Below, piece after piece: positions 14,881-57,371 of a DNA stretch of 64,000 nucleotides; within the stretch, counting starts at the first letter, position 1, and every line of letters begins with the position of its first letter. The DNA comes from Dactylorhiza incarnata (Eukaryota; Streptophyta; Magnoliopsida; Asparagales; Orchidaceae), in NCBI GenBank assembly GCA_033032865.1, contig JAWHQI010000028.1:5165001-5229000 (forward strand). Direction: 5' to 3'. The notes under the pieces are model-generated. The model was given only the letters and a program-made list of their open reading frames with translations, did not search any database and had not been told where the DNA came from. Position numbers and translations under genes: made by a program.

Positions 14881-14898
14881 CTTGTATTGACAGTAATA

Positions 14899-17800: not shown

Positions 17801-19131
17801 TGAAAGTGCACAATTAACCTCACTAGAATTCTCTAGAGGGGGGGTGAATAGAGATTTAAAAATTATTTTGTGCAAAGTTAATATATATGTGTATGATCAC
17901 AGATTAGAGCTTCCCACACACCAACAAGAATTAAGCAAGAAAATAAAGTAAATGCAAGAAAATAAATCACAGCACAACACAAGAAAATATAGTGGTTCCC
18001 CAAACTTTGGGTAGTCCACTCTTCTACCCCCTTGGTAGGAATTCACTATCTTGCACTGAGTCTTTTGATAAGGAGACTCCTAGAACCACCCTGAGTCTTT
18101 TGACAAGGAGACTCTTAGAACCAACTGAGTCTTTTGACAAGGAGACTCTTAGAACCAGTACACTGAATTTTTTTGAAGAGAGATTCTAAAAACTCTTTTA
18201 CAATGTTTAAGTAAGAAAAAGAAAGAAGAAAGAAATAAGAACAAGAATGAATCTTCTTCCTAGCAAGAAGATTGGAAGCACAAGAAGTAGTGAATGAAAT
18301 CTCTCTTCTATAGTGAGAAGGAGATTGTAAAAAACTTTTCTCTCTTTTGAGAGAGCTTTCAGAGTTTGCAGTAGAATGGCTTCTGAAGAAGAAGGAGAAG
18401 ATGAAGGCTTTTTCTCTACAGCACACTATCTCTTTTCTCAGCTTTTTCTCTCTATTCTCTTGGGAGCTTTTCCTCTATTTCAAATGTATGTGGTGGATCA
18501 CTCTTCTACATTTTCTGCCGACCTCCTCTTTATTTATAGCTCTGTTAATTCAAAATAATACTATAGGAGGATAATCAATTAGCAGTTAGAGAAATAGAAA
18601 GATGAAAATGTTTCCATAATATTTATTTCTGTAGAAGGAAAGAACCAATTCTGATTTCAAATAATGTCCAAATAAGTTTAATCAAATTAGCCAAGAATCA
18701 GATATAAGGAAAGAATGATTCAGAACGGCTATAAAATATTGATGCTTATTCCATACAAGTCAGATCTACTGAAAGAAGGAAAGAGATCTGACGCATATTT
18801 AAATCTGTCATATAAATCGATGTGCGTCGATTACCATTCGACGTAAGCGTCGAATTCATCCTGGATGGACGTCGAGAGGAGAATAAGGAAGGTGCGTCGA
18901 CTAAGGTGCATCGACTTCTCCATATGCGTCGACTAGAAATCAGAGTAGCGTCGACAACACATACGTCGAAATCTTCCTAAAGTTACTTCGACTTATTCTG
19001 ACGGAAACGTCGACTATATTTCGCCGTTGCGTCGAATACTATTCGACGCATATTTACTTAACCTTGTTTTTCTTTCTTAGAATTCATATTCAACTTAATT
19101 CAAGGGGTTAAGAGAAATCATTTCCCCAACA
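17801..19131 (-). repeat. S1 3' LTR
   Basis: 1,331 bp. Three near-tandem copies of GAGTCTYYTGAYAAGGAGACT lie at 18055-18155. The cluster of CGTCGA half-sites at 18820-19060 includes full CGTCGA-N7-TCGACG sites at 18826-18844 and 19030-19048. Apparent ORFs at 17992-18574 occur equally in the 5' LTR and are not genes. Confidence 0.92.
18820..19060. promoter_or_regulatory. CGTCGA-N7-TCGACG cluster, S1 LTR
   Basis: About a dozen CGTCGA or TCGACG half-sites lie in 240 bp. The complete sites have 6-8 bp arms and exactly 7 nt between them. The same cluster is in the 5' LTR (27210-27460). Whether it acts as DNA (binding site) or RNA (7-nt-loop hairpin) is not shown. Confidence 0.75.
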
Positions 19132-19141
19132 ATCTCCCCCT
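19132..19141 (-). promoter_or_regulatory. S1 polypurine tract
   Basis: AGGGGGAGAT directly abuts the 3' LTR on the minus strand, the plus-strand DNA primer site. Further polypurine words lie upstream near 19446, 19476, 19846 and 20149, the multiple-PPT habit described for Sireviruses. Confidence 0.85.
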
Positions 19142-19354
19142 ATTTGTCTTAACCCTACTTAGAGAGAAATTGTAGTAGCATAAAATCAATCAGCACAGCA
19201 TTTGTATAGAAAAGAAATATGTCATGCAATCAAAAGGGAAGTTTGGAAGAAGAGATCATATAAACAAATTTTCCAGAATCATATAAACAGATCTCATGTT
19301 CATTCCAATTAGTACTTAACTATAGGGTAAAATATATCAGCATGGTTTCAAATA

Positions 19355-20396
19355 TTATTCAGGAGGGGTAGGAGGAGTCTTTCTTTTTCTCTTGAATACT
19401 AAGGTCTTTGGAGAAGTGAGTTGCTCCTTTTCTATAACAGGTGGTCCACTCAGCTCCCCCTGAGTCACAGCAGTAAGCTCCCCCTGAGATGGAACTTTTT
19501 TTAAGCCTTCTGCTCCTTCTTCAGTTGCTCTTCCATCTCCAGTTGTAACTACATCTGCCTCCTGAGCTCTTTCTTCAGCTATCACAGTTTCTGGCTCTCT
19601 CTCAATAACAACTTCAGCAATAATAGCATCTGGCTCTTCTTGAGTCTCAGCTGCTTCCTCACATTCAGTCACCTTTTCAGCCACAGCCTCTTTTACTGCT
19701 TCATTCTCTACTCTACTTGCTTCAACTGCTTGTTGTTCAGCTTCTCTTGCAATAGAGAGTACATCTGTTGTTGTATGTAGCAGAGGTATTACTTCAACAG
19801 ATTTTTGACTGGAGGGGTGCTCTTTATCAAATTTCTCCCCCTTCTTGACCTTCTTAGCCAAGGAGGTTAAGAAAGATCTAGTCACTTTGGAGGAAGAGAC
19901 AGAGGACTTCAAGCTCTGCACAGAGGCATTTACCCCTTCTATTTGGGTTTGCATGTGCATGATAGAGGAGTGAAGTTGGGAGCAGTGCTCATCCAGCATT
20001 CCCTGAAATATTTGGGTTGCTGACTGAATACACTTGGTAATGAGAGTGGCAGTGGATGGAGATGGGTCTAGTGGTGTTGGAGTGAAGAGATTTAAACCTG
20101 AGCTTTTAGTTGAGATCAAAAACCTGGCAAGAGGGGTTTCTGGAGCAACTCTCCCCCTGGTTTATATCTTTCAGGAAGGATGTAAACCTTTGTGGCGACA
20201 GAGGTTCCTCTTGAAGAAGAAGATGAAGCCCAGGAAGAGAGGCAGACAGGGTGGCCAATTTGGCTTCACAGGAGGTGATCATATTGGCACATTCATTTGA
20301 GAAGTTTGTTAATCGTGTCTGGAAGTCATTGAGAAGATTTTCCAGAGCATCGTTCATTGCTTTGATAAGGTCAGTTTGAACAGGAGTAGGCGCCAT
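19355..20396 (-). pseudogene. S1 env-like region (coiled coil)
   Basis: Two overlapping minus-strand frames form this region: 20106-20396 (start chosen at MAPTPV, 96 residues) and 19355-20119 (254 residues). Their overlap suggests a frameshift around 20110. The first part has long helices (DALENLLNDFQTRL). The second has RSFLTSLAKKVKKGEK, followed by a long Glu/Ala-rich acidic stretch and a basic end (VFKRKRK). The placement between RNase H and the PPT is that of the Sirevirus env-like gene. I see no convincing signal peptide or membrane segment, so 'env-like' is positional only. Unlike S3 and H, it lacks the upstream domain with PPGKR and LKKK-INW motifs. Two in-frame polypurine words encode QGEL. 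Confidence 0.6.
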
Positions 20397-20579
20397 TGAT
20401 GCAGGAAGAGAGAGAGGTAGAAGACGCAGTTTTGGCGGGTCCAGAGAGGTATTTGTTATGAAATAAGAAGTACTGTTTAAAGAAGATGAAATGTCGAGAA
20501 AGGAAACAGAAATCAAGGTAATCCAGTCGTAAAAGAAAAGGAAGTAAGGATTTGATTCCAATTTTAACCAGAAGTCGAC

Positions 20580-20800
20580 ATTACGTCGAATTGATGTCAA
20601 CGTATGCGTCGATATGTAGTCGGCGTTCCGTGAAGGTTTTGTCAGTCTAAAGATTTGTCGACGTGGTCATAGACTTGCGTCGATAAGAAGTCGACGGTAT
20701 GTTGATAGTGGATCGGCGTAACTTTAACTGAAAGAAATCAGAACCAGCGTCGAGGTCTTCTCGACGGTACGTCGATATTAATTCGACGCATCTCCAGGAA
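20580..20800. promoter_or_regulatory. CGTCGA-N7-TCGACG cluster between pol and env-like
   Basis: Six or more imperfect to perfect sites lie here (for example near 20588, 20608, 20672, 20700 and 20771), all with a 7-nt spacer. Some have one changed base in an arm (TCAACG, TCGGCG). Confidence 0.7.
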
Positions 20801-20847
20801 ACTTTCTTAGATATTCTGATGTCTTTAGATTTCCCTAACAATGAGGT

Positions 20848-23800
20848 TTACAAGCTTCCATCAAGCATCCCCAAGGTGTTTATGAAATAGTTATGCTTAG
20901 TTTCATCTAAAGGTTTTGTGAAGATGTCTGCTCTTTGATTGTCTGTGGGAATATATTCTAAGGTTATTTTACCCTTCTCAACATTGTCTCTAAGGAAGTG
21001 ATGTCTGATTTCTATATGTTTGGTCCTACTATGAAGGACTGGGTTGGATGCTATGGATATAGCACTAGAGCTATCACAATAGATCTTAGAGTTGTGTATT
21101 TCCAATTTGTAATCAAGTAGTTGATTTTGCATCACAGAATTTGTGAACAGCAGCTCCCAGCAGCTATGTATTCAGCTTGAGCTGTTGAAGTTGAGACTGA
21201 GGTTTGTTTCTTACTAAACCATGAAATCAATCTGTCACCTAGAAATTGGCAGGTACCAGATGTGCTTTTTCTATCAACCCTACATCCAGCATAATCTGCA
21301 TCTGAGAAACCTATTAATTCAAAGTTGGTTTCTGCTGAGTACCATAGTCCTAGTTCAGGGGTTCCCTTTAGGTATCTAAGAATCCTTTTTACAGAGGTGA
21401 GATGGGATTCCTTTGGATCAACCTGAAATCTTGCACATATGCAAGTGGCAAACATGATATCAGGTCTGCTTGCTGTTAGATATAGAAGGGATCCTATGAT
21501 GGCCCTATAAGTCTTTTGATCTACTGATTTTCCTTTATCATCTTTTTCTATGATGGCATTGGTTGCCATGGGTGTTTTCATGGTAGATGCTGATTCCATA
21601 CCAAACTTTTTGATTAGTTCTTTGGTATATTTTGATTGTGAGATAAAGATTCCTTCACTACTTTGTTTTACTTGTAGCCCTAGGAAGTAGGAGAGTTCAC
21701 CCATACTACTCATCTCAAATTTAGATTGCATAAGATTAGCAAATCTTTTACATAGTTTAGGATGGGTTGAGCTAAAGATAATGTCATCTACATATATTTG
21801 AACAAGGAGGAGTTGGTTTTTATGTGTTCTAGTAAAGAGTGTCTTGTCTACTTTTCCTCTTTCAAAGGAATTTTCTAAAAGAAAATTTGAGAGAGTTTCA
21901 TACCAAGCTCTAGGTGCTTGCTTAAGACCATATAATGCTTTGTTAAGTCTATAAACAAAGTTAGGGGAAGAGGGATTAACAAAACCTGGTGGTTGCTCCA
22001 CATATACCTCTTCTTGTAGATCTCCATTTAAAAAGGCACTCTTGACATCCATTTGGTAGACTTTCATCTTCATGAAGGCTGCATAGGCAAGAAAGAGCCT
22101 GATTGCCTCTAATCTGGCTACTGGAGCAAAGGTCTGATTGTAGTCTATCCCTTCTTCTTGTCTATATCCTTGTGCTACAAGTCTTGCCTTGTTTCTCACA
22201 ATTATTCCAGTGGAATCTAGTTTGTTCCTGTATACCCATTTTGTACCAATTACAGGGTAGTTTATTGGTCTTTCAACTAGGTTCCATACTTTGTTTCTCT
22301 CAAATTGGCCTAGTTCTTCTTGCATGGCCATAATCCAGTGAGGATCACAATTTGCTTCCTCAAACTTCTTTGGTTCAACTTGTGATAGGAAGCATTGGAG
22401 CATTATCCCATTGGAGACTTGGTGTCTTGTTCTTACTCCTGCATTGGGATCTCCAATCACTTGAGCTTGTGGATGATCTTTCAAATTGATTCCTGTTCTG
22501 CCTGAATTTGTCAGTTGTTCTTCTACTTCATTCTCAATGGGATCATTGTTCAATTGTTCTTCCTGGACCATGTCCTCTTGTGGAAGAGGGTCTTGAGTGC
22601 TCTTTTCTGAGGTTTCTTGTTCAGACTCCTCACTTGGTTCCTCTAACTGGTTTTCCTTTCCATTTTCTGTGTTCTCTAGAGCTAGTTGCTCAAGCTGGGT
22701 TTCTATGCTGTTGTTTTCCTCTGGAACAGAACTGGTGGAAGTTTCCTCCCCCTTAAGCAGCATGTTAGTTTCATCAAACAAAATGTGCATGGATTCTTCA
22801 ATCTTAAGAGTTCTTCTATTGTAGCACCTATATGCTTTGCTGGATGATGAATATCCCAGAAATATTTCATCATCAGACTTCTTGTCAAATTTGGCAAGAT
22901 GATCTTTCCCATTGTTTAGAATAAAGCAAGCACGTCCAAAAATTTTAAAATATTTAACAGTGGGTGTTTTATTTTTCAGGAGCTCATATGGAGTCTTTGA
23001 TTTAGTTTTGTGTATGAGGCTTCTATTTAGAACATAGTTTGCAGTGTTGACTGCTTCAGCCCAAAAGGTTTTTGGTAATCCTGACTCTGCAAGCAGGGTT
23101 CTACCTGATTCTATTAAGGTTCTATTCTTCCTCTCAGCAACTCCATTTTGTTGGGGAGTTCTAGGTGCTGAGAAGCTTTGTTTAATACCTTCTTCCTCAC
23201 AGAAACTACAAATCATCTGATTCTCAAATTCAGTCCCATGGTCACTTCTTATAATTGAAACATTTGTATTGAACTCAGATTGAATCTGTCTTATGAATTT
23301 TGAGAGAATTTTATGGGTTTCAGATTTAACTCCTAGAAAGAATACCCAGCTAAACATAGAATAATCATCAACAATGACCAAGGTATAGGATTTTCCACCT
23401 AAGCTTTGAGTGGATATGGGACCAAAGAGATCCATGTGTAGTAAGTATAAAGACCTGGGAGAGTCATCCTTACCAATGGGTTTGAAGGATGATTTGGTTT
23501 GCTTTCCTAGTTGGCAAGGTCTGCATGGAGAATCTTTAGAGTACCTACCCTTTGGTAAGCCTCTGACTAGGTTATTCTTAGCTAGTTTACTGATTGTTTT
23601 GTAGTTTAGATGACCTAGTCTCCTATGCCATAATTCATTTTTATCAATAATATTGTTGAATAAGCAAACTTCTGTGGGTGAAGAGCTAAAGTCCACTACA
23701 TATACTCTCCCTTTTCTAATTCCATTTAGTACTGTAGCACCAGTCTTGATATCTATAATATGGCAGAATAGTGTAGTGAATTTTACCTCATACTTACCAT

Positions 23801-24044
23801 TCTCACATATCTGACTTATACTTATCAGATTGTGTTTTAGTCCTTTGACTACTGCCACATTCTTGAAGGTGACTTTCCCTTCTTTGAAATCTCCAAATCC
23901 CTTGGTTTGGCCACAGCTAGAGTCTCCAAAGGTTACTGATGGTCCAAGTCTATCCTCAAAGTTGATTTATAGGTTTTTGCAACTTGTCATGTGCATGGAG
24001 CATCCACTGTCCAAGTACCACACCATCCTGGAAATGTGATACAT
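20848..24044 (-). CDS. S1 Pol polyprotein, two lesions
   Basis: Protease, integrase, reverse transcriptase and RNase H of a Ty1/copia element. Start chosen at the ATG at 24044, upstream of the protease motif. The protease active site DSG is at 24003-24011. A GAG-pre-integrase zinc region (WHRRLGH, later CRPCQ) comes next. The integrase catalytic residues lie in HMDLFGP (about 23435), SDHGTEF (about 23242) and NGVAERKN (about 23140). The RT palm motif YVDD is near 21785. RNase H has DADYAG and QAEYIA, and ends with the frame 20848-21135 ([20 protein letters not shown]). Lesions: an in-frame TAA at 23967-23969 just after the protease motif, and a one-base loss near 21135 that splits RNase H. 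Everything between is a single 2.7-kb open frame. It would act in cytoplasmic virus-like particles to copy and integrate the element. Confidence 0.92.
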
Positions 24045-24070
24045 CTGCACATAAAAGTTTAAACATTAGT

Positions 24071-26098
24071 TTAGACCCTGCTGAGCTGGGGTCCCTTTCT
24101 CTCATTAGTAAAAGATTTAATAAAAGAATAAGTGGGTTTTTCAGGATATCCTTCCTCCTTATGGGGTACTGGCTTATCATACCAATCTTCTTGGATGATA
24201 TCACAGAAATAGTGTTCATAATAGAAGGACATGGATTGAGGGACCTGTTTGGAAACAGAAAATTTTCTGTCTGATTTATTGCGTCGATAGGGATTCGACA
24301 TAGACTTATGGTTGCGTCGATATGAATTCGACGTAGGTTTCTGGTTGCGTCGATATGAGGTCGACGCTTCCTTCATTCTGAGTCTACTTTTAGTCGAAGC
24401 ATGTGAGAGATTACGTTGAGTGGAGGTCGGCGCGATTTGGTGTATGCGTCGATTAGAAATCGACGCACGTGGATAATAATTCGACGTATGTTCAGAATTT
24501 TTGTGAGGATACTTTCCTAAGATTCCTTTATCTGAAATGGGATTAGGTTTATTAAAAACAGTGGTTGTTTCTGGACCTACTTGTGATCTAATTCCTGCTA
24601 GATGATTCTCCCTGGTGAATTGAATGGGATGTTTCCAGACAGGTTTGCTGAATGTTTGTGATTTAGATGCTTCATTAGTATTCAGCTTTAGTTGTCTAAA
24701 TCTATCAGTGAGATTCTAAGAGATGTTCTTGAGCTTCTGACCTCTTCCATTCAGAGAGTCCTCAAAGGCTTTAGCCTTTGCCAGCTCTTTCCTTAGTGTT
24801 AGATTTTCTGAATAGATTTTGTCTAATTCCTTCTTTGAGAGCTCTTGATCGAGCTTATAGTTTTCATAGTGTGTATTCACATGTTTGAGATTTCTTAATT
24901 CAACTCTTAATTCTTTTACTTCTTTTTCAGATTTGATTAGATCTAAACAGAATTCTTTGAAATCTTGTTTGAAATCAGTAGAAGAGAAATCTATATCATC
25001 AAGTATATTTACCATAGATGTATCATCAAGCTTCTCAGTGGCCATCAGACAGGTTTCCTCTTGCTTGACCTCTTCCTGATCATTGTCTGATGAGGTACTT
25101 CCTTCAGATTCTGAATCACTCCAAGATTGAGCAATGAATCCTCTTTCTTTCTTTTTCTTCTTTAGATCTGTTCTTTTCAGATCTTTCTTAGTGTTGTTCT
25201 CCTTAGGACATTCAGGTGCAATATGTCCAGGTTTCCTGCAAGAGTAACAGATAATCTCTTTAGTAGGTGTTTTATTATACCTGGTTTTTGAATCTCTTCC
25301 TCTGGATCCTTCTATTTTGATCCACCTCTTGAACTTCCTAGCCAGGAAGCTGATTAGTTCCTCATCACTAGTAGATGGTTCACCTTCAACAGCTTTCAAT
25401 GCAATACTCTTTTCTTTTGAGAGTGGAGAGGCCTTTTCTTTCTCAGCTCTGGTTTTCAACAGTTGTTCATAGGATTTTAATTTACCCAACAGAACATCTG
25501 TTGATATTTCTTTTTGACTTCTGTAGTCTTTGATTGGCCAGATTCTTGAGTCCCAAGAGCTAGGAAAGCAAGTCAGCAATTTATCATTTATCTCAGTGAG
25601 AGATATGTCCTTCTCAAGTGTTCTCAATTCATTGACTATGAGGCTGAATCTTGAATACATGTCAGCAACACTTTCACTTTCTTTCTTTTGGAAGTTTTCA
25701 TATTGGGAGATCAGTAGTGCCTTTCTATCCTTTTTCTCATCAGCACTTCCCTCTACCATTTTGGTGAGAGCTTCCCATACTTCCTTAGCTGACTCACAAT
25801 CAGCAATCTTTTGGAAAATTTCATCTGAGAGGGTTGAGACTAGGATATTCATAGCCTTGGCATCATGTCCTTGGGCTTTCTTCTCATCTTCTGTCCATTC
25901 AGCTCTTGGAACAAGTGTTTCAGTCACTTTTCCACTTGAATCCTTCCTGAATGGCTTGGGGGGACCTGTCAAGATCACATTAAACAATTCATCATCAATA
26001 GAGTTTAAATAAATTCTAATTCTTGTTTTCCAAAGTGCAAACTTTTCCAGGTTGCAAATTGGAGGTCTGGTGGAAGCATAATCTTTGATTTGTGCCAT
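24071..26098 (-). CDS. S1 Gag with internal TAG
   Basis: Structural protein of the particle. Start chosen at MAQIKDYASTRP (26098), because S3 Gag begins with the same block; the frame upstream to 26155 is hydrophobic and unlike it. It has a copia-type (UBN2) capsid domain at about residues 10-230, a zinc knuckle CYSCRKPGHIAPEC at 25208-25250 (about residue 283), an acidic Ser-rich stretch and a coiled coil. A TAG lies at 24716-24718, where S3 has a Gln codon. The same frame then stays open for over 200 codons to a TAA at 24071. That C-terminal extension contains repeats of the type S-Y-R-R-N encoded by CGTCGA-N7-TCGACG sites. With the TAG, the product is 460 residues. Readthrough or simple decay both fit. 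Confidence 0.88.
24280..24480. promoter_or_regulatory. CGTCGA-N7-TCGACG cluster within gag frame
   Basis: Full sites lie at 24282-24300, 24315-24333, 24348-24366 and 24447-24465, each with exactly 7 nt between arms. They fall in the open C-terminal frame of Gag and are translated as SYRRN, PYRRN or SNRR blocks. Confidence 0.8.
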
Positions 26099-26181
26099 AT
26101 GATAAAATAATTTTGAAAAATATATATATATGAGAGGTAGGATCTTTTTGATCAAGGAGTTATCCTTTTTAGATCAACCTG

Positions 26182-26193
26182 GCTCTGATACCA
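26182..26193 (-). promoter_or_regulatory. S1 primer-binding site (iMet tRNA)
   Basis: TGGTATCAGAGC on the minus strand, 2 nt inside the 5' LTR end. It matches the 3' end of plant initiator Met-tRNA, the usual primer of these elements. Confidence 0.92.
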
Positions 26194-26195
26194 AT

Positions 26196-27533
26196 TGAAA
26201 GTGCACAATTAACCTCACTAGAATTCTCTAGAGGGGGGGGGGGGTGAATAGAGATTTAAAAATTATTTTGTGCAAAGTTAATATATATATGTGTATGATC
26301 ACAGATTAGAGCTTCCCACACACCAACAAGAATTAAGCAAGAAAATAAAGTAAATGCAAGAAAATAAATCACAGCACAACACAAGAAAATATAGTGGTTC
26401 CCCAAACTTTGGGTAGTCCACTCTTCTACCCCCTTGGTAGGAATTCACTATCTTGCACTGAGTATTTTGATAAGGAGACTCTTAGAACCACCCTGAGTCT
26501 TTTGACAAGGAGACTCTTAGAATCAACTGAGTCTTTTGACAAGGAGACTCTTAGAACCAGTACACTGAATTTTTTTGAAGAGAGATTCTAAAAACTCTTT
26601 TACAATGTTTAAGTAAGAAAAAGAAAGAAGAAAGAAATAAGAACAAGAATGAATCTTCTTCCTAGCAAGAAGATTGGAAGCACAAGAAGTAGTGAATGAA
26701 ATCTCTCTTCTATAGTGAGAAGGAGATTGTAAAAAACTTTTCTCTCTTTTGAGAGAGCTTTCAGAGTTTGCAGTAGAATGGCTTCTGAAGAAGAAGGAGA
26801 AGATGAAGGTTTTTTCTCTGCAGCACACTATCTCTTTTCTCAGCTTTTTCTCTCTATTCTCTTAGGAGCTTTTCCTCTATTTCAAATGTATGTGGTGGAT
26901 CACTCTTCTACATTTTCTACCGACCACCTCTTTATTTATAGCTCTGTTAATTCAAAATAATACTATAGGAGGATAATCAATTAGCAGTTAGAGAAATAGA
27001 AAGATGAAAATGTTTCCATAATATTTATTTCTGTAGAAGGAAAGAACCAATTCTGATTTCAAATAATGTCCAAATAAGTTTAATCAAATTAGCCAAGAAT
27101 CAGATATAAGGAAAGAATGATTCAGAACGACTATAAAATATTGATGCTTATTCCATACAAGTCAGATCTACTGAAAGAAGGAAAGAGATCTGACGCATAT
27201 TTAAATCTGTCATATAAATCGACGTGCGTCGATTACCATTCGACGTAAGCGTCGAATTCATCCTGGCTGGACGTCGAGAGGAGAATAAGGAAGGTGCGTC
27301 GACTAAGGTGCGTCGACTTCTCCATATGCGTCGACTAGAAATCAGAGTAGCGTCGACAACACATACGTCGAAATCTTCCTAAAGTTACTTCGACTTATTC
27401 TGACGGAAACGTCGACTATATTTCGCCGTTGCGTCGAATACTATTCGACGCATATTTACTTAACCTTGTTTTTCTTTCTTAGAATTCATATTCAACTTAA
27501 TTCAAGGGGTTAAGAGAAATCATTTCCCCAACA
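26196..27533 (-). repeat. S1 5' LTR
   Basis: 1,338 bp, with the same structure as the 3' copy. The CGTCGA cluster is at 27210-27460. The G run near 26231 is longer here than in the 3' LTR. Confidence 0.92.
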
Positions 27534-27796
27534 AATATCATCATGAGTAGGAGAAGGAACTGATGTGTTCATGGGAGGAATAAGAGCCTCAAGTAAGGAG
27601 AGTGGAGGTGAAGGTAGATAATGTCCTTCTGTGGGAAGAAGAAGACAAGTAGATGAAACAGCCACATATGATTTAGTAGGAGTTTTTATTGTGATCTGCC
27701 TTCCCCATCTACTGAAGAGTTGAATGTTCAATCTTTTCCCTGGAGGGATACTAATTATCTCAAATGAACAAACTGCTACGAATGAGTGCTTCAACA
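27534..27796 (-). pseudogene. Sirevirus H env-like gene, middle part
   Basis: A minus-strand frame with IPPGKRLNIQLFSRWGRQI, matching IPPGKRMNIGIFSKWTRQI in the S3 env-like gene (about 41150-41200), followed by a Pro/Ser-rich linker. It lies between S1 and solo LTR L4, both inserted in this gene. CAACA at 27792-27796 is one copy of the L4 target duplication. Confidence 0.7.
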
Positions 27797-28543: not shown

Positions 28544-28634
28544 CTTAACTTATATGAACGCCCATACGACATATAAGTTAAGATGTCCAGGTAACCCATC
28601 ATATAAAAGAGCCCATACTAATTTATATGATGGG
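28544..28634 (-). other. Paired hairpin module H1-H2 of L4
   Basis: H2 arms are CTTAACTTATATG (28544-28556) and 28570-28582, a perfect 13 bp. H1 arms are CCCATCATATAAA (28595-28607) and 28622-28634, a perfect 13 bp. Compared with L2, several base pairs are changed on both sides, while the loop keeps GTATGGGC. Confidence 0.85.
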
Positions 28635-30020: not shown

Positions 30021-30680
30021 TTACCATGTGATTTGACATTTTAAACAGATTTAATATTCAAGTGATGTAAATTCCAATTTCTACATGAAAAACAAATCTA
30101 CAAGCTTCCAAACAATTGTCATGGGCATATATTAACCTAAAATTACAGATCACCAAGTATAATGACAAAGCCCCATGATTTGACATTTTAAAAAGATTTA
30201 ATACTCAAGTGGTGTAAATTCCAATTTCTACATGAGGTACAAGAAATACAATCCTACAAGATTCCAAACAATTACCACGGGCATATATTAACCTAAAATT
30301 ATAGATCACCAAGTATCATGACAAAGCCCCATGATTTGTCATTTTAAAAGATTTAATACTCAAGTGGTGTAAATTCCAATTTCTACATAAGGTACAAGAA
30401 ATACAATCCTACAAGCTTCCAAACAATTAACATGGGCATATATTAACATAAAATGACAGATTTCCAAGTATCATAACATTGCCCCATGATTTGATATTTT
30501 AAAATGATTTAATACCCAAGGGTTGTAAAATCCAATTTCTACATGAGGTACATGAAATATAATTCTACAAGCTTCCAAATAATTATCATGGGCTTATAAT
30601 AGCATTGAATGACAGAAAACCAAGTTTCACAATTTTTCCCCATGATTTGACATTTTTCACAATTAAATTCCCTTAAGCTA
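30021..30680 (-). repeat. Tandem array in L4, period about 155 bp
   Basis: CCATGATTTGACATTTT and related words recur near 30024, 30172, 30328, 30482 and 30641, with GGGCATATATTAACCTAAAAT between. About four and a half units. Same period and similar place in the LTR as the array in L2, though similarity by eye is weak. Confidence 0.8.
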
Positions 30681-34010: not shown

Positions 34011-34109
34011 AGATCATTAGTTGACATACACTGAGTTCTATCTTGAAACAGAAAAGCTTATTTTCTTAAAAAAAATTACAAATTTTATCTACTCAGCTCT
34101 ATTCAGCAT

Positions 34110-34828
34110 TTCTAGAGTATTTATAAAACACGTATGCTTCACCTCATCTAGAGGTTTAGTAAATATATCAGCTTTTTGCTTTTCAGTAGGAAAAAATTCA
34201 ATATAATTTTCTCTTTCTCCACATTGTCACTAATAAAGTGATGGCTTATCTCAATGTGCTTAGTCCTGCTGTGAAGTACAAGATTGGAGGCAATTGAAAT
34301 AGCATTGGAGCTGTCGTAGTAGATTGTGGATTTTGTGAATGAATATCCATAATCTAACAACTGATTTTGCATCCATAAGAGTTATGAATAACAACTCTCA
34401 GCTGAAATATACTCAGCCTCAATTGTGGATGTAGATATTGCGATTTGTTCTTTTGTTGAACCGTGAGATAAGCCTTGTACCAAGGAATTGATGAGCCCTT
34501 TAAATATCTCAGTATCGTTTTTACAAAGGTCATATGAGATTCTTTAGGGTCTACATGAAATCTTGTACAAACACAAGTTACAAATATTATATCATACCTA
34601 CTAGCTATAAGATATAAGAGTGATCCAATGATGGCCCAATAGATCTTTTGATCAACAAGTTTGTCTGCCTCATCTGTATCAATTACAACATTAGTACCAT
34701 AGGGGTTTTCATTGTGGTAGCACTTTTCAGTCCAAATTTCTTAATTAACTCTCTAGTGTATTTGGACTGAGAAATGTACAAACCTTCACCAGATTGTCTT
34801 ACTTGAAGACCAAGGAAATAGGTGAGCT
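34110..34828 (-). pseudogene. Sirevirus H pol remnant (RT end, RNase H)
   Basis: The minus frame 34148-34372 carries YYDSSNAISIAS and [13 protein letters not shown], the RNase H end matching S1 pol. Upstream, 34373-34828 retains the RT to RNase H connection in broken frames, with part of RNase H missing near 34470. The similarity stops abruptly at 34828 inside the motif equivalent to [10 protein letters not shown], where L5 sequence begins. Confidence 0.75.
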
Positions 34829-36168
34829 AGGGCAAAACTTTGACCATAGAAGCCTACGTGACCAAGTGAAATCACTTAAACCACCCTTGACTTAACTAGG
34901 CCAACCAACCCTAGTATGACCCAATTAGACCCCAATGAGTCAAATTGACCTCACCCATACCCTACTAACCATTAAGGGAGTCCATTAGGTCAGAAATATT
35001 ATATTGGGCTCACCCAATTTCATAAAATTGACCAAAGTCATACTTAGGTCAATTTAGGTCAAATCAACCCCAAATGGATCAATTAGCCCAATGTGGACCA
35101 CACCATGACACAATCAACATTGGATGGTGCCATGGGACCCATCACCATCAAATTGAGTCAACCCCACCATTGGTTGACCAAGTCAACCATGAAAGTCAAC
35201 CATGGTCAAAATTGAACTAAAATGGGAAAAATTAAGAAATTCAATTAATCTCCATGGGCTAAGGCCCACATGGCAGCCCACCCTATAGATCATGAACATA
35301 ATTACCACCCATGCCATCCAATTTTAGATAATGATGACATGACATGGTGAATTTAACACTTTCCCCAATTTTGAGAATGCTTTCAATGGAGAATTTGGTT
35401 GAATGCCAATGAGCATTCATTCTTCCCTCCCAATGCATCCCCTCAACTCCCCAATGAATTCTAGACAGTTTCCAACCTCTCCCGGCCAAGTGGAGGAAGA
35501 ATTCAAAGAGTTTTAACATTGGGCGAAATGACCATTAATGGCAATGCAATGTTTAGTCTCCCCCACCTCTAATTAACCCCTCCATTAATTAGCTTCATAA
35601 TGGGAGAGCGGTTGAAATCAAGTTTTAGGTTGTTACATTTGGTGGAGAAATGGAAATTTGGCATATAAGCATGCTTGAGGTGGGCATCCATGGAAAATTC
35701 AGGAAACAACCACCATCAAGCTCGATTGGAGCTCAGATTCTCCTCCTCTCCTCTCATGCTAGCTTCTTAGAACCAATAGGAATGGAATCGGGCTCAAGAG
35801 AGCTAGATCCAACATGTTCAAAATCGGTATTTGGACCGATTATACCCCCCTCCCGAAACCCCATATACACGTGATTCTGGTGGCCAGACCACTCCTACTT
35901 GACGACCACTACCTCAACGGAGGTGGTGGTGGTGGCGGCCGACCAGAGGAGGGGATGGCCAGGAAATGGTCTTTGAAATCGGTCCAGGCGCGTGCAATCT
36001 GGGTTGTTGGCTTAAGGAAGAAGACAGCCGGATGTCGCCGGTTTGGGGGTGCCCTAGATCAAAGCTAAATTATTTTATGTGCTATAGTTTAAATTTAATG
36101 ATATTTAATATGTCACATTTTGTATAGAAACTTCAAACCCATTTTGAGTATCATATAGGCAGACCTAG
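34829..36168 (+). repeat. Giant LTR L5, 5'-truncated first segment
   Basis: Sequence of the L1/L2/L4 type: 'gaccaaagtcaac' words, then a GC block with the hairpin at 35906-35929 and an AT-rich tail. The TGTAACATCC start is missing at the junction with H. It is interrupted by S3 (duplication CCTAG at 36164-36168). No gene; the ORF at 35650-36068 is a GC-block artefact. Confidence 0.7.
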
Positions 36169-37772
36169 TGTTGGGAAAAACTCCTTTTGATTTAACTTAA
36201 CAAATTATCTATAGATGATTTATACTCCCTAGGAGTATTACCCTCATTGTATAGAAAGGGTAACTTGGTCATTAGATGTCCTAGGATGTCACACTCATCT
36301 TGGAGTGTCAAGGCCAGGTCAAGATAATCACAAAGTCAGTTAAGTTAAGACTTGCGTCGAATGAAAGTCGACGCAACTTTGACTTGATGTCGACGCAACT
36401 TTGACTAGATGTCCAAGCAACTTAATCGGCCTGTCAAATTATAAGTCAAGTCGACGCAACATCGAATGGGACTCGACGTAGAAGGAAGAGCTTGTCGAAG
36501 CCATCTTAGAAGTCGACGCAATTTTGACTTCAATTTGACGCAAAAGATAAAGTTCAAGTCCAAGTCTTCAACTCGACGGATACGTCGATAAGGAATCAAC
36601 GCAACGTCGACATCTGAGTTCAGCCATAGCTAAGAAGGAATTCAAAGCTACTCCTATAAGAACTCAGAGGTGCGTCGACATGAAGAATGATGAAGTCGAC
36701 GCAGCGTCGAATACAGTCTGAAAAGGAAGCTTTTTCTGCTGTCCTTTTAACACCTTTTCAGAAGGACCACAAAGTTAAAGACAGTTCTCCAATGGCTCGT
36801 TTATTGCCAAGAATGGAATGGAGTATTCCAGGACACAGCAAAAACATTCTTGGAAGGTATTCAAATCTGATGGACTGGTCGGGATCAAAAGTAGAAAGGG
36901 AAATCAAATGTCCAATAAGAATTCCTTTTCCGGAAAGCCTAAAAGGAGAAAGCAATTCAAATTCCAATCATACAGAATAAGTATGCTGAAGAGGAGAAGA
37001 AATACATAACATTGATTATTATTACTGATCTGTCGAAAAGGGTTTTTCTGCTTCTTCCTCCTTCAACCCTAACACAGAAAAACAAGTGTCCTCTCTACAC
37101 AGAAAAAGAATACAGCTACTTCTTCTTCTTCATCACACATCAGCTAGTTTACAAGAAGTGCTCAAAGAATAAGGATCAATCAAATAACCCTTGCAATCAT
37201 CACAATCATAAGCAAGGGTTCATCATATTCAGATCCAGTGAAAAATAGAAGCTGCAGTTCATAAGAAATTGCTTCTGAAGAATTCTGAAAGCAGAATTCT
37301 ATTCTCCCTCTTCTTTCTATCTTCTCCTTTCTTCTTCACTGTAAAAGAGTTTTATTAATCCCTCTTTCAAAGAATTCAGTGGTTCTAAGAGTCTCATTAT
37401 CAAAAGACTCAGTGGTTCTAAGAGTCTCCTTATCAAAAGACTCAATGGTTCTAAGAGTCTCCTTATCAAAAGACTCAGGCACAGGTTGTGCAATCCTACC
37501 AGGGAGGTAGAAGTGAGGAGTACCCACATTTTGGGGAACTTCTATAAAAATTCTTGCGTCCTATGTGTTTGATTTTCTGTGTTGTCCCTATTTCCAGTTT
37601 TCCGTGTTTATATTTCCTGCAATATGTATTTTCTTTATTCTGTCTTTTTGGATTGTTGATTGCATAATACTTAGTTTTTTATTGTGTGTACATAATTATG
37701 GTAAAAAAATATTTAAAACTCTATTCCCCCCCCCCCTCTAGAGAATACTCAGAGGCACACTGTGCACTTTCA
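36169..37772 (+). repeat. S3 5' LTR
   Basis: 1,604 bp, TGTTGGGAAA to CTTTCA. CGTCGA sites at 36350-36720 include the 8-bp-arm site TGCGTCGA-N7-TCGACGCA (36353-36375). GAGTCT...TATCAAAAGACTC repeats lie at 37385-37480, resembling those of the S1 LTR in reverse. A C-run stands near 37728. ORFs at 36687-37248 are LTR frames also seen in the 3' LTR. Confidence 0.9.
36350..36720. promoter_or_regulatory. CGTCGA-N7-TCGACG cluster, S3 LTR
   Basis: At least a dozen CGTCGA or TCGACG half-sites, several paired with a 7-nt spacer (36355-36373 and near 36582). Repeated in the 3' LTR at 42755-43110 with many CpG to TpG or CpA changes. Confidence 0.75.
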
Positions 37773-37774
37773 AT

Positions 37775-37786
37775 TGGTATCAGAGC
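37775..37786 (+). promoter_or_regulatory. S3 primer-binding site (iMet tRNA)
   Basis: TGGTATCAGAGC, 2 nt after the 5' LTR end. Confidence 0.92.
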
Positions 37787-37880
37787 GAGGTTGATCATTG
37801 AAAGGTTAACACCTTGATCAAAAGATTTCCTCATCTTATTTCTTTACTGTAAATTAGTTAAAAACTATTTTCTAAAGAAA

Positions 37881-39613
37881 ATGAGTTCTAAGAATTATGC
37901 ATCAACAAGACCATCAGTGTGTAACCTAAATAAATTTACACTCTGGAAGGCCAGAATAAAGCTTTACATGAACTCTATTGATGAAGACATCTTTGATGTT
38001 ATAATTCCAGGTCCCCCTGCTCTAGTCAGACAAGATGTCAGTGGATCTTCAACACTTGAAGCTGTACCAAGGAATGAGTGGACAGAGGCTGAGAAGAAGC
38101 AGAAGGCTTGTGATGCCAAAGCTACGAACATTCTGATTTCCACCATGTTAGATGACATCATCCAGAAAGTAGTTGAATGTCAATCAGCAAAAGAGATCTG
38201 GGAATCTCTTTCCAGACTTGTAGAAGGAAGTTCTGATGAAAGAAAGGATAGGAAGTCCCTTCTCATATCCCAATATGAGAACTTTCAAAATAAAGCTGAG
38301 GAACTGTTGCTGAGATGTATGATAGATTCACCGTTATAATAAATGAGCTGAAAGGTCTAGAAAAGGAGATTTCTCTGACTAAAATCAATGATAAGATCCT
38401 CATGTGCATCCCAAGCTCATGTGACTCAACGATCTGGGCCATCAGAGAGTCCAGATGCCACAGAGAGATCTCTACTGATGCTTTGCTAGGAAAACTCAAG
38501 TCTTATGAGATGCTACTGAAAAGCAGGCTTGAAACAGAGGCAAAGGAGGCAACCTCAACTCCTATCCAAAGGAGCCTTGCTTTAAAGGTTGCTGAAGGAG
38601 AGCCCTCCACTCCTGAAGATGAAATGTTCAGCCTCCTAGCAAGGAGATTCATAAAGTGGGTAAAGATAGAAGACTCAAGGACATGAGAGAGGAGCTCAAA
38701 GCCCAGATTTGATAAGACTCCAAAGAAGGAGGTGATTTGCTTCTCCTGAAACAAGCCATGGCACATATCCCCTGAGTGCCCACAGGAACAAAGGGACAGG
38801 AGCAGCAACAAAGATGTGCATAAGAAGAAGTCTTTCAGAAGGAAAGATAATAAGAAAGCTAAATATTTCATTGCTGAAACCTGGAGTGACTCTGAAGCAG
38901 AGTTAAGCTCATCCTCATCAGAAAGTGAGGAAGAAGCTGTTGAAGCTGCCAACATGGTGGCATTAGGGATCTCCTCAAATGATGAAGAAGAATAGGTATC
39001 ATTGTTTGATGATTTTGATTTTAATTCTGATGATTTTAAAAATTGCTTTAAAGAATTTTGCAATGATTTCCTCAAAATACAAAAAGAATTAGAAAATCTC
39101 AAGAAAGATGGATTATATTCAATAAATAATGATTTGAGAAATAAAATTCAGGATAAAGAAACAGAATTGATAGAGATAAGAAAGGATAATCTAAAATTAA
39201 AAGAAGAACTAACAAAGGCAAAAGCCTTTGATGACTCTCTCAATGGGAGGAGTCAAAAGCTCAAAGATATTACACAAAATCTCTTCATGAGATTTAAACA
39301 CCTAGGTCTAGGAGAAGACCCTTGCACTAGTACTGAAGTCACTAGTAGAATAACCTGGAAAAATCCAGTTAGATTTATTAGACCTAATGGGTATCAAACA
39401 AGTGAGAGGAGTGCAATAACTAAGGGTCAAGATATTAATAATCCAGATAAAATAACTATATTTAATAGAGGAAAACCAAACAATGAAAAGAAATATCTAG
39501 GCAAGAATAATTCAAAGAAATTAACCAACAAGAATCAAAAGGCTAAAGCCAAAAGTAGAATAATTAGACACTCTGTTAACTTTTTATATTGGATACATTT
39601 TATACATATCTGA
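37881..39613 (+). pseudogene. S3 gag pseudogene
   Basis: It begins MSSKNYASTRPSVCNLNKF, matching S1 Gag. Frame 37881-38339 is followed after a frameshift near 38310 by 38315-38686, then by stops at 38684-38686, 38747-38749 and 38993-38995, then by the frame to 39613 with the coiled-coil region (KAFDDSLNGRSQKLKDI as in S1). The second stop falls on the second cysteine of the zinc knuckle (CFS-stop-NKPWHISPEC), and the knuckle glycine is Trp. It cannot make a functional nucleocapsid. Confidence 0.88.
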
Positions 39614-40521
39614 ATACCAAAATAATAAATCAAGATTTGATAAACTCATTCTCTGTCATCCAAAAGGATATACTGAAAGACCCTTCTATTCTTTCATAGA
39701 ACCATATAATGGTAAAAGCAAAGGGCCCAAGGTAACCTAAGTTCCTTCTAATGTTTGAGCTACTTGTGCAGGATTAGGTAGGATCCGTCCTATGAGATAA
39801 GGGAAGGGGAAGGAAGAACTATGGCCTAATAAAGAACTAAATCCAACAAGGGAGTGATTTCTTATCTGAATCATCTTATTATCTTCTTTAGTTCATAAAA
39901 ATGATAGTATAAATACAATTTTCAATAAAAAAAATCATTGCTGGGAAAACAGCAAGAACTTTCTAAGAAAATATAACTATATAATCATAGTCGCGTCAAA
40001 TAGAATTTGACGTACTGTCTAATTCTACTCGACGCATGCTTCGAAAGCAATATACAACAGATAATTCGAGTTGCGTCGAATAGAATTCGACGTACCGTCT
40101 AATTCTATTCGACGCCAGCTTCGAGAGCCGTCTAAATCAGATAATTCGAATAGCATTCGACGCAACGTCGACTTCATATCGATGGATACGTCGATTTAAT
40201 AGTTGCTCGTGAAATTCGAAGGTGTGTCAAGTTCTAATCGACGCAACGTCGACATAACAAGCGTGCACAGTTTCAATTCTAGAAGCTGTTTCGACATATT
40301 TTGGCGTGCTGACTATTAATCTTTGTCGACGGTGCTTCGGATAAAACCCTAAGGTGCGACGAATCATTTTCCTTTAAGCAACATTGGCGTCGAATTCATT
40401 ACGCTTTTTAATTTTCTCTTTCCTACTCTCGTGCTCTTCCTCCCCCCCAGCTCTCCTGCTTCTTTCTCTCATCTCTTTCTCTCTCTCTCTCTTGTCACTT
40501 TTTGCAAGTACTTCAGAATCA
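39614..40521 (+). other. S3 spacer replacing pol, with CGTCGA sites
   Basis: 39620-39740 still resembles the end of the S1 gag frame (GYTERPFYSFIE against GYPEKPTYSFIK), then unrelated sequence follows. At 39990-40330 lies a CGTCGA cluster, including 40074-40092 (CGTCGA-ATAGAAT-TCGACG). A pyrimidine-rich stretch (40430-40500) precedes the env-like ATG. No gene. Confidence 0.7.
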
Positions 40522-42350
40522 ATGGCTCCTCCAAAGATAAACTTTGGCTTTGATGTTGATATAAACTCCTTCAACACAGCATCTGATAATTTCAAGGCCA
40601 TCCTAGGCTTATTTCATGTTGTCGGTCTGACAAAGTTTTTTCTTCAAGGTGCAAGATACTTGATGCTGAACTGACAGAGTTCAAGGACAATATGCAAATA
40701 GGAGATGATGGCTCGCTCAATGAGAAAGTTTCTGAGACAGATATATATATAAAAGAGGAATTGCTAAATCAATCATTTGATCTTACAACTGGCAGTGATT
40801 CAGATGAACTGGCATGGGAAGATATCAAAAAGGTTCTAAAGATCATGCAGTTCAAGAAAGAGAAGACCATCAATCTGAAGAAGATTGATCTTACAGAAGA
40901 ATATAGATTCCTTGCTGATATAGTATGGAATGTGCTCCTATGCAAAATCTCAGCTCATGATGCTATCCCCAAGCAGCAACTGTAGAGCATGGGTGTTCTA
41001 GTCCTTAAGAAGAAGATAAACTGGGGGAGATGCCTCCTGAAAATGATTGGACACAAATATGCTCACAAAGAAAATGCATATATGAGAATCATGAGCCAGG
41101 TGCTCTTCCACCATTATCCAATTGTGTGCAAGTCAAAAGGAGTGCCCATTCCTCCAGGAAAAAGGATGAATATAGGGATATTTTCCAAGTGGACTAGGCA
41201 GATTCTGAAGCCTGGTCAATCTACACCTTCACCTCCTCCTTCTCCCTCTCCCCAAGACATGGAGACAAATCTACCAGATCCTCCAAGGGATAATTCTCTT
41301 CCACAGGACACCCTAGCAACTCAACAAGACACTAATCCAAAGGTTGATCCAGATGTTGATCCAGCCCAGTTCAACCAGACCATTCTATCCATTCCTTCCC
41401 CAGAACCTGCACCTCGGGTCTCTATCCAACCACATCAACAACCATCAACCATAATCACAGACAATCAATCTACTCCCTTACCATAATATCATATCTCTCC
41501 GGAAGTGTATCAATCCCACTCCCCTATCCACTAAGATCTCCCGGACTTTAATGAAAACTTCACAGCAATCCCTCCAGGTATCCTACCCATACCTACTCCT
41601 CCTACATCTCTTGTCTCTATCACACATTCTACTCTCTCTATTGAGCAAGCAATCTCTAAAGCAGTAGGGTTGGCATCAAGCACCTTTGCTGACCTACTGG
41701 CCAGTCAAGCCAGAAAATTCAATAAGAAGTACTCTCAGATGGAGTCAGAGATACAAGAATCAAAAGAGTCCCTTCTATCACTCAAAACAATTGTATCCTC
41801 CTCCATGATAACTAAAGATTTCTTAACCTCCCTTGTAAGTAAGGTTAAGAAGTGGGAGAAGATCCAGGAGGAGGAGATACTTAATGAGGGAATTATAAGT
41901 GTCCAGGAGAAGGACAAGAGTGCACAAGAATAGATTGCTCCAAGTTTCCCAAGTACTGAGGCTCATGACCCAAATAAGCTCATAGTTTTTCAAACAGAAA
42001 CAGTCTAAGTGGAGCCATTTAGGAATCCTCCATAAACAGAAAAGCTTGCATCAATCCAGGGGGAGCCAGCTACAGAAACCCTTGTAGTAACCCAGGTGGA
42101 GCTCCCAACAACTCAGAGGGAGCTCGTAGAAGATGAACAGATATTGGATGAGGTTGCAGTGATTGTTAAGGAGGATGCTCTGAATGCTGAACAAGATGCA
42201 CAATCTCAGGGGGAGTCTCCCAAAGAGAATGAAATCAATCAAGAAGCTGACAGGTATCCTGAAGAAGGAAATGAATCTCTTGTTTTTGCTGCAAGAAAGG
42301 AGATACCTCTGGTCTTCTCAAGGAAGAGGAAAACTGCTGACAAAGAATAG
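40522..42350 (+). pseudogene. S3 env-like gene, broken
   Basis: Five successive frames can be followed: 40522-40674 (MAPPKINFGF), 40692-40985, 40989-41486, 41670-41933 and 42096-42350. Stops or shifts separate them. The first 220 codons carry YRFLADIVWNVLLCKISAHDA, VLKKKINWGRCLLKMIGHKYA and IPPGKRMNI, a domain resembling the 'putative plant transposon protein' family. Then come a Pro/Ser-rich linker, a coiled coil with KDFLTSLVSKVKK, and an acidic tail ending LVFSRKRK. Polypurine words near 42057, 42092, 42112 and 42208 are in frame and read QGEP, QVEL, QREL and QGES. Its role is unknown, and I see no membrane anchor. Confidence 0.72.
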
Positions 42351-42561
42351 TGATGTTCATGTATTTTGTATACATATGATACAATTCTCATTATCAAATG
42401 GATACAGTAATTCAAAACAGTATGATTACTTGGAAGTTTACTATATGATCTATCTTGTTATTTAATAATTATTTATTGTATCTGTATAATTGCTTGTATT
42501 AAGATTTATGTCAAAGTTGTGTAAAATCACTTTAAACAATCTGTAAAATTTGTTAAGATAA

Positions 42562-42573
42562 ATATGGGGAGAT
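42562..42573 (+). promoter_or_regulatory. S3 polypurine tract
   Basis: ATATGGGGAGAT immediately before the 3' LTR. Shorter and less pure than the S1 tract. Confidence 0.75.
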
Positions 42574-44181
42574 TGTTGGGAAAAACTCCTTTTGATTTAA
42601 CTTAACAAATTATCTATAGGTGATTTTACTCCCTAGGAGTATTACCCTCATTGTATAGAAAGGGTAAATTGGTCATTAGATGTCTTAGGTTGTCACACTC
42701 ATCTTGGAGTGTCAAAGCCAGGTCAAGATAATCACAAAGTCAGTTAAGTTAAGACTTACATCGAATGAAAGTCGACGCAACTTCGACTTGATGTTGACAC
42801 AACTCTGACTAGATGTCCAAGCAACTTAATCAGCATGTCGAAGTATAAGTCAAGTTGACACAACGTCGAAAGGGACTCGACGTAGAAGGAAGAGCTTGTC
42901 GAAGCCATCTTAGAAGTCGACGCAACTTCGACTTCAATTCGACGCGAAAGATAAAGTTCAAGTCCAAGTCTTCAACTCGACGGATACGTCGATTAAGAAT
43001 TGACGCAACGTCGACATCTGAGTTCAGCTAGAGCTAAGAAGGAATTTGAAGCTACTCCTATAAGAACTCAGAGGTGCGTCGACATGAAGAATGATGAAGT
43101 CGACGCAGTGTCGAATACAGTCTGAAAAGGAAGTTTTTTCTGCTGTCCTTTTAACACCTTTTCAGAAGGACCACAAAGCTAAAGACAGATCTCCAACTGC
43201 TCATTTATTGCCAAGAATGGAATGGAGTATTCCAAGACACAGCAAAAACATTCTTGGAAGGTATTCAAATCTGATGGACTGGTCTGGGTCAAAAGAAGAA
43301 AGGGAAATCAAATGTCCAATAAGAATTCCTTTTCAGGACAACCTAAAAGGAGAAAGAAATTCAAATTCCAATCATACAGAATAAATATGTTGAAGAGGAG
43401 AAAAAATACATAACATTGATTATTATTATTGATCTGTCGAAAAGGGTTTTTCTGCTTCTTCCTCCTTCAACCATAACACAGAAAAACAAGTGTTCTCTCT
43501 GCACAGAAAAAGAATACAACTGCTTCTTCTTCATCACACAGCAGCTAGTTTACAAGAAGTGCTCAGAGAATAAGGATAAACAAATAACCATTGCAATCAT
43601 CACAATCATAAGCAAAGGTTCATCATATTCAGATCTAGTGAAAAACAAAAGCTGCAGTTCATAAGAAATTGCTTCTGAAGAATTCTGAAAGCAAAATTCT
43701 ATTCTCCCTCTTCTTTCTATCTTTTCCTTTCTTCTTCAACTGTAAAAGAGTTTTATGAATCCCTCTTTCAAAGGATTCAGTGGTTCTAAGAGTCTCCTTA
43801 TCAAAAGACGCAGAGGTTCTAAGAGTCTCCTTATCAAAAGACTCAGTGGTTCTAAGAGTCTCCTTATCAAAAGACTCGGGCATAGGTTGTGAAATCCTAC
43901 CAGGGAGGTAGAAAAGAGGAGTACCCACATTTTGGAGAACCTCTATAAAAATTCTTGTGTCCTCTGTGTTTGATTTTCTGTGTTGTCCATATTTCTAGCT
44001 TTTTGAGTTTATATTTCCTGCAATCTGTATTTTCTTTATTCTATCTTTTTGGATTGTTGATTGCATAATACTTAGTGTTTTTATTGTGTGTGCATAATTA
44101 GGGTAGAAAATATTTAAAAATCTATTCACCCTCCCCCCCCCCCCCCCTAAAGAATACTCAGAGCCACACTGTGCACTTTCA
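42574..44181 (+). repeat. S3 3' LTR
   Basis: 1,608 bp. Many of its differences from the 5' copy are CpG to TpG or CpA within the CGTCGA sites (for example TTGACA for TCGACG), as expected after methylation. A C-run of about 16 lies near 44133. Confidence 0.88.
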
Positions 44182-57338: not shown

Positions 57339-57371
57339 TATTCCTGGTTTTTAAACCATTTGGAATAACCT

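Follow-up and report, generated by a model that had tools for sequence, protein, structure and literature searches.

The 64,000-nucleotide stretch of the orchid Dactylorhiza incarnata analysed here (contig JAWHQI010000028.1, positions 5,165,001 to 5,229,000; hereafter the window) harbors two long terminal repeat (LTR) retrotransposons, S1 and S3. Both carry many copies of an inverted motif, CGTCGA-N7-TCGACG, whose arms are held at a fixed distance of seven nucleotides (nt). We think it probable, with appreciable room for doubt, that this 19-bp dyad, in the following referred to as the box, is a DNA site for a dimeric regulatory protein, the most plausible candidate being a transcription factor of the host.

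Two Sirevirus-type elements and their boxes

S1, a copia element, is encoded on the minus strand and has a 3' LTR at 17799-19132 and a 5' LTR at 26194-27534 that are 98.6% identical. Its gag open reading frame (ORF; 24716-26173, minus) matches the Pfam families Retrotran_gag_2 and zf-CCHC, and its pol ORF (21132-23966, minus) matches integrase (rve) and RVT_2. Between them, a further ORF in the gag frame (24071-24715, minus) follows the gag stop codon, is not joined to gag and holds an array of boxes. Two ORFs occupy the env position (20106-20666 and 19355-20161, both minus); neither has a Pfam match above the cut-off, so that they are putative env genes by position, and the latter shares 74 amino acids (aa) at 38% identity with the linker of S3. 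S3 lies on the plus strand with LTRs at 36169-37772 and 42574-44181 (93.2% identity); among its ORFs scanned by Pfam, gag alone matched. The features by which Sireviruses are recognized are present: copia-type gag and pol in S1, and in both elements a primer-binding site TATCAGAGC beside the 5' LTR (26182-26190, minus, in S1; 37778-37786, plus, in S3) as well as multiple polypurine tracts AGGGGGAG. S1 has five linker copies of the latter between 19134 and 20151, i. e. the terminal one adjoining the 3' LTR (19134-19141, minus), which is intact at the AT/TG att site, and others at 19454, 19478, 19835 and 20151. S3 holds the octamer at 42058 and 42208, and its terminal copy is altered. Sireviruses are further described as having an inverted repeat across the junction of polypurine tract and 3' LTR (PMC2829016). 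The closest named relatives of the S1 gag come from another orchid, Platanthera zijinensis (63% identity over 40% of the query, 55% over 45%, and 45% over 59%).

The exact box occurs 13 times in the window and never in its shuffles. When up to two mismatches are allowed, 36 boxes are found compared with 0.3 in 30 dinucleotide shuffles, and 35 of these lie within S1 and S3, the remaining one at 12115. The initial annotation had claimed that the arms recur with constant spacing, and the histogram of gaps from 0 to 40 between exact arms bears this out with a peak at gap 7 (13 dyads), followed by gaps 29 (five), 17 and 40 (two each) and 28 (one), with all others at zero. All eight examples listed there were recovered, with the corrections that the first starts at 18825 rather than 18826 and that the box at 24282 has one mismatch (TCGACA). 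In a scan for dyads that presupposed no motif, CGTCGA with gap 7 ranked first in S1 (ten exact copies, counting both LTRs) and second, tied, in S3 (three); it is absent from the eight best dyads listed for each of five other parts of the window. The consensus is roughly TRCGTCGA-NWWSWWN-TCGACGYA with a core geometry of GTCG-N9-CGAC.

As had been claimed, the boxes cluster in both LTRs, at the end of gag and between pol and the env-position ORFs. The LTR clusters occupy the upper half, at LTR positions 85-290 in S1 and 187-415 in S3. In S1 they span 18800-19060 in the 3' LTR (boxes at 18825, 19008 and 19030 plus weaker ones) and 27200-27462 in the 5' LTR (27227, 27297, 27410 and 27432). In S3 they span 36340-36720 in the 5' LTR (36355, 36377, 36460 and 36583) and 42744-43124 in the 3' LTR (42759, 42770, 42864, 42915, 42926 and 42987). 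Internal clusters precede the env position in S1 (20560-20800; boxes at 20584, 20607, 20678, 20748 and 20770), where the cluster overlaps the start of the first env-position stop-to-stop ORF, and in S3 (39980-40260; 39994, 40016, 40074, 40096, 40144, 40166 and 40225). The cluster at the 3' end of gag in S1 (24270-24500, minus) is an in-frame array with boxes at 24282, 24315, 24348, 24414, 24447 and 24468, mostly in 33-bp steps.

The LTRs of both elements further contain a 33/34-bp tandem repeat (18054-18157, 26456-26559, 37376-37478 and 43768-43877). Another dyad, GAGTCT-N10-AGACTC, ranks first or second by abundance in S1 and S3, and its arms fit this repeat.

Geometry of the dyad: DNA or RNA

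For the comparison of individual boxes (up to two mismatches), a non-redundant set of 25 was compiled from the 3' LTR and interior of S1 (14 boxes) and the 5' LTR and interior of S3 (11 boxes). The spacers had been described as variable, AT-rich and free in sequence. They are indeed varied, with 24 of 25 distinct, and consist of 72% AT, yet they are not free: 21 of the 25 boxes have G or C at position 4, and A or T occupies position 2 in 24 and position 6 in 23 of them. The G/C centre recurs at other loci in 17 of 22 S1-type and 17 of 20 S3-type boxes. When one arm is altered, the 100 genome sites listed first (84 distinct spacers) have G/C counts of 40, 13, 21, 69, 23, 14 and 40 along the spacer. 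This symmetric profile fits what a DNA dyad would give, while the loop of a hairpin requires neither symmetry nor a G/C centre flanked by A/T.

The boxes also keep regular distances from each other. Where fetched genomic loci are free of the 41-bp array described below, 13 of 14 close neighbours (at most 50 bp) are 22 bp (seven) or 33 bp (six) apart, and within the window 11 of 12 such neighbours are separated by 21-23 or 33 bp, the last one by 48 bp. A circular statistic on the periodicity of TCGA peaks at 11.5-11.6 and not at 11, although R(11) of 0.304 exceeds all 2,000 jittered controls (maximum 0.22). The argument for a 22/33-bp spacing is drawn from the neighbour distances instead. With such a spacing, dimers could stack on one face of the DNA. 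Local tandem duplication contributes to the pattern, namely in a 33-bp array (24279-24366), a 22-bp array (36367-36423) and an 80-bp duplication (39989-40149). A single tandem duplication with identical spacers is nevertheless refuted as the source of the clusters by the 24 distinct spacers.

Alignments of related copies allow the arms to be compared with their surroundings. In the S1 LTR (four copies), the pairwise difference is 0.056 for the arms compared with 0.214 for the spacers and 0.169 for the flanks; in the gag array (three copies), the respective values are 0.148, 0.357 and 0.357. Both favour selection on the arms, which vary least even though they are rich in CpG.

An RNA counterpart of the dyad would be a hairpin with a stem of 6-8 bp and a 7-nt loop in the genomic RNA, which could serve in packaging or could be a source of small RNAs directed against the element. 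All five clusters tested are more stable than their shuffles (z -2.9 to -5.9), the folding energies of six single sites range from -9.4 to -13.7 kcal/mol, and in maize Sireviruses small RNAs are reported to map to palindrome-rich regions (PMC5311732, PMC10760457). Yet the minimum-energy fold shows a hairpin of the box itself for 8 of the 25 boxes. Where arm pairs have changed in the window (20 cases), pairing in the sense RNA is lost in 13, turned into G-U in six and restored by compensation in one, and neither the flanks nor the spacer ends of the window boxes covary above shuffles. A point for paired arms comes from the genome, where symmetric double C-to-T changes at arm position 1 number 3,643 (control 220). 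This is 3.05 times the expectation derived from 24,047 single changes and 121,091 intact sites, or 2.87 times net of the control, whereas an unpaired double change reaches 4,058 (controls 211 and 226) against an expected 3,045, i. e. 1.33 times or 1.19 net. The excess speaks against plain independent decay, but it fits a hairpin, a symmetric protein site or families founded by a TGTCGA dyad alike, the latter two predicting it equally. Altogether, we regard action as RNA as unlikely. The initial annotation had left the choice between a dimeric DNA site and a hairpin undecided; the former has since become well supported through the fixed gap, the conserved arms in two of four small alignments, the symmetric spacer, the 22/33-bp distances and the occurrence in distant repeats, while the latter has weakened in spite of the stable clusters and the symmetric doubles.

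CpG content, codon use and carriers across the genome

The boxes concentrate most CpG dinucleotides of their elements. In S1, 106 of 122 CpGs fall into the box clusters, which make up 996 of 9,736 bp, and in S3 this is true for 87 of 119 CpGs in 1,043 of 8,013 bp. The observed/expected ratio (o/e) is near 2.2 in the S1 clusters (2.25 at 18800-19060), and 1.59 and 2.55 in the 5' LTR and internal clusters of S3, a comparison that is partly built in, as the motif itself contains CpGs. By contrast, S1 pol has a single CpG in 2,835 bp (o/e 0.01) and S1 gag one in 1,458 bp. It is this near absence elsewhere that is striking, given an o/e of 0.78 in another Sirevirus-type element of the window for the matching part of pol, a part without any CpG in S1. 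Two box carriers from other loci (L005 and L015) likewise show several 1-kb windows at 0-0.08 and higher values at the boxes. Between the two LTRs of S3, CpG-type changes make up 13 of the 27 differences within the box region compared with 4 of 68 outside; hence, the boxes decay after insertion. That they are intact in young copies then suggests either selection acting on active copies or some protection prior to silencing.

The Sirevirus-type element at 49161-58551 (minus) is depleted differently: at 50600-57300, CAG/CTG reach 0.28 and 0.22 of expectation and CpG 0.59, which is opposite to the nearly CpG-free S1 and S3 with their CAG/CTG at 0.72-1.24. Two lineages of a single genome thus lack different methylation contexts. 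Its LTRs contain a CpG island (49911-50160 and 58161-58410), the first copy of which consists of GCGGTAGC-type repeats, a box unlike that of S1 and S3. Long direct repeats are nested in this part of the window (44594-49161 and 45577-59654, 97.3% and 97.5%), which suggests that elements were inserted into each other. The window also has tandem arrays at 5742-7363, 14007-14941 and 30029-30656, whose units recur at intervals of roughly 156, 127 and 156 bp, respectively.

Where the boxes enter an open frame, after the stop codon of the S1 gag ORF (24282-24447), codon use changes with them. The array uses CGN for 10 of its 12 arginines, but the remaining gag frame for none of its 30 and pol for 1 of its 44; serine as TCG accounts for 6 of 13 in the array, none of 61 in the remaining gag frame and none of 83 in pol. 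Codons that are otherwise unused argue that the DNA word is kept and not the peptide alone. The translated footprint, roughly [S]SNxxRR in steps of mostly 11 residues, is also present in gag relatives: in P0005 from P. zijinensis at 380, 391 (first residue W) and 402, in P0068 at 282 and 293 and more weakly at 304, and in P0001 at 569 and 590. A conserved C-terminal stretch that S1 shares follows the footprint in P0005 and P0001. Seven of 80 proteins matched any of three frame patterns, namely these three, P0066 and P0067, which are S1 itself, and P0041 and P0065, whose one match each was not counted as support. One of these carriers, P0068, was contributed by a third protein search, and a search with the C-terminal part of P0001 matched itself alone.

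Across 3.27 Gb of genome, the exact box was counted 121,091 times (control 44), compared with 15,071 dyads for gaps 0-6 pooled (control 1,803) and 34,363 for gaps 8-17 pooled (control 2,671). Gap 7 thus exceeds the mean per gap about 56-fold and 35-fold, respectively. These counts are copies and not independent origins, and they probably in large part mirror the number of elements. Twenty regions were fetched, of which 14 could be placed at listed sites; of the six others, only L023 held a box. The carriers include S1-type (L008, L013 and L018) and S3-type elements (L009, L011, L012, L015 and L016) as well as a third related family, which matches S1 pol at 66-74% DNA identity by segment (L005, L010) or 81% over 387 bp (L023). 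L005 and L010 have boxes with GC-rich spacers between their pol and gag matches, L005 also past the 3' end of pol. A more distant copia element in L017, with gag and pol by Pfam and a pol only 32% identical to that of S1, carries exact boxes in both LTRs (3788-4556 and 8674-9418); gag and pol are the sole ORFs of at least 150 aa listed on its strand between them. The box is also found outside such elements, since the unit of a 41-bp tandem array contains it in full (L006:2402-2549, L006:9307-9518 and L007:1112-1253). In L006, this array adjoins extended tracts of a minisatellite with the 12-bp unit CTTCTTAGGACT. The unassigned locus L014 contains a pair of exact boxes at a distance of 22 bp. 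A natural variant with gap 6 exists as seven dyads CGTCGATTGTAATCGACG in 22-bp steps (G000:C11:7908840-7908989). Collections of viral contigs and genome contigs yielded no confirmed relatives of the pol, and the pattern of two close boxes had no hit in the viral contigs.

Several observations weigh against a site under selection for a protein. In the S1 cluster before the env position (two copies), the arms differ by 0.167, about as much as the spacers (0.19) and less than the flanks (0.39), and in the S3 internal cluster (two copies) the arms (0.15) differ more than the spacers (0.086) and about as much as the flanks (0.157). In the former, selection on the arms is thus favoured relative to the flanks only, and in the latter not at all. 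The third family does not retain the G/C centre (four of nine boxes). As S1, S3 and this family are relatives, part of the sharing of the box is descent. Finally, no known factor fits the box, and the best dyad of the auxin response factors (ARFs) is not enriched (see below).

Conceivably, the boxes could even have no function and represent a repeat unit that was spread by slippage, gene conversion and the copy number of the elements. The local duplications, a genome count that presumably follows element number and the two alignments without special arm conservation over the spacers would all agree with this. However, arms and gap stay while spacers differ, and the arm CpGs, despite their fast decay, persist in the young S1 and in the codons of the gag array. 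We therefore consider an absence of function very improbable.

For a DNA site of a dimeric protein, the evidence in hand comprises the sequence with its fixed gap, the codon bias, the CpG contrast, the arm conservation in two of four alignments and the presence in several repeat families. From these we infer binding by a protein, its encoding by the host and an action on transcription or silencing. A symmetric dimer would grip the two CGTCGA half-sites of double-stranded DNA at a fixed distance. The boxes in U3 may act as upstream activating or anti-silencing elements, those before the env position could form a second regulatory module, and in the gag array the DNA word is evidently retained even where the codons have to bend to it. 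A more far-reaching version is possible but doubtful: more than 100,000 dyads of constant gap might form a code across the genome that is read by one dimeric factor of the host plant and that several families of retrotransposons, together with one or more tandem repeats, have come to share partly independently. S1- and S3-type elements retain hardly any CpGs elsewhere, and the boxes would then be where CG methylation is concentrated, and so also the switch that turns the element on or off. The geometry is sufficiently strict for the protein to be fished out, given a 19-bp dyad with a gap requirement, about 121,000 copies and natural gap-6 controls. A host factor, if found, would explain the on/off switching of a large class of plant retrotransposons, and the contrast between nearly CpG-free elements and CpG-dense boxes makes it possible to test directly whether the element is controlled through methylation of its boxes.

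Comparison with known systems

Among the sites of plant transcription factors, VOZ proteins bind GCGT-N7-ACGC, and NAC dyads were likewise considered; the arms of the box would yield GCGT-N13-ACGC, a spacing that fits neither. The consensus is not matched by W-box, as-1 and DREB sites either.

The closest geometry is that of ARF dimers, which bind inverted repeats of the type IR7/8 (TGTCNN-N7-NNGACA; PMC10690724), while clade A ARFs recognize direct repeats with a 10-bp phasing (PMC6207667). The box could accordingly be a variant of the IR7 auxin response dyad with C in place of T at position 1, perhaps resembling T when methylated. It has the same 7-bp gap between inverted hexamers and the same distance between the GTC/GAC cores, and the double TGTCGA dyads (3,643, control 220) are in line with such a reading. 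Yet TGTC is described as the invariable core, whereas 62 of 70 arms of the box begin with C and three with T. The best ARF dyad, TGTCGG-N7-CCGACA, occurs 110 times in the genome compared with 197 for the control, and TGTC-N11-GACA is absent from the window. ARFs are hence a highly improbable reader.

A different precedent is offered by VANC, an anti-silencing protein encoded by the VANDAL transposons of Arabidopsis. Its targets are short motifs that have built up in tandem repeats and vary from one related element to another (PMC5735166, PMC10398659). By analogy, the boxes might be targets of an anti-silencing protein encoded by the element, and their clusters are indeed its CpG-dense parts. 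In contrast to the VANC21 motif YAGTATTAY, which is reported from non-coding DNA (PMC5735166, PMC10398659), the box also occurs in coding DNA, and the word "palindrom" does not appear in PMC5735166. A DNA-binding protein was sought by Pfam in the two env-position ORFs of S1 only, with nothing above the cut-off and thus no VANC-like candidate. The box is, moreover, shared by a tandem array and by L017, whose listed ORFs of at least 150 aa are gag and pol. An element-encoded reader of this kind is therefore quite improbable, and a dimeric host factor remains our preferred candidate.

Among retrotransposons, palindromes CACCGGACNNNGTCCGGTG in maize Sireviruses are likewise clustered, in the cis-region of the LTR, but have another core and a 3-nt spacer (PMC10760457). 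The nearest relatives of the box are the palindromic repeated motifs (RM) of Sireviruses described by Bousios et al. in 2010 (PMC2829016), which lie in the LTRs and upstream of ENV and form CpG islands. According to that paper, 12 of 13 motifs have a CGG-CCG core with short intervening sequences, Tnd-1 lacks the core, and no common reader was identified. The box resembles them in dyad symmetry, in copy number (14 in S1 and 11 in S3, compared with the at least eight per element expected of RM), in its place in the upper half of the LTR and, by position, in the linker before the putative env ORFs (20560-20800 and 39980-40260), and in CpG richness. It differs in its CGTCGA/TCGACG arms without the CGG-CCG core, its variable 7-nt spacer, its cluster in the gag frame, its 22/33-bp steps and its occurrence in other repeats. 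TATA candidates lie at LTR positions 595 (S1) and 1375 (S3), much farther from the CpG-rich clusters (o/e 1.59-2.55) than the average of 37 bp after the CpG island given for RM. With the failing core and the different spacer and gag array, the box is best regarded as an RM-like variant and not as RM proper. The assumption that such a motif had not been described thus holds in part: Sirevirus palindromes in LTRs and before ENV had already been published (PMC2829016), while the literature searched gave no match for CGTCGA arms with a 7-nt spacer or for a box cluster inside gag, and neither "cgtcga" nor "tcgacg" occurs in the main text of PMC2829016, to which this search was confined. Taken together, the box joins a known class of palindromic Sirevirus elements in a form, CGTCGA arms around a 7-nt spacer, that is new as far as these searches show.

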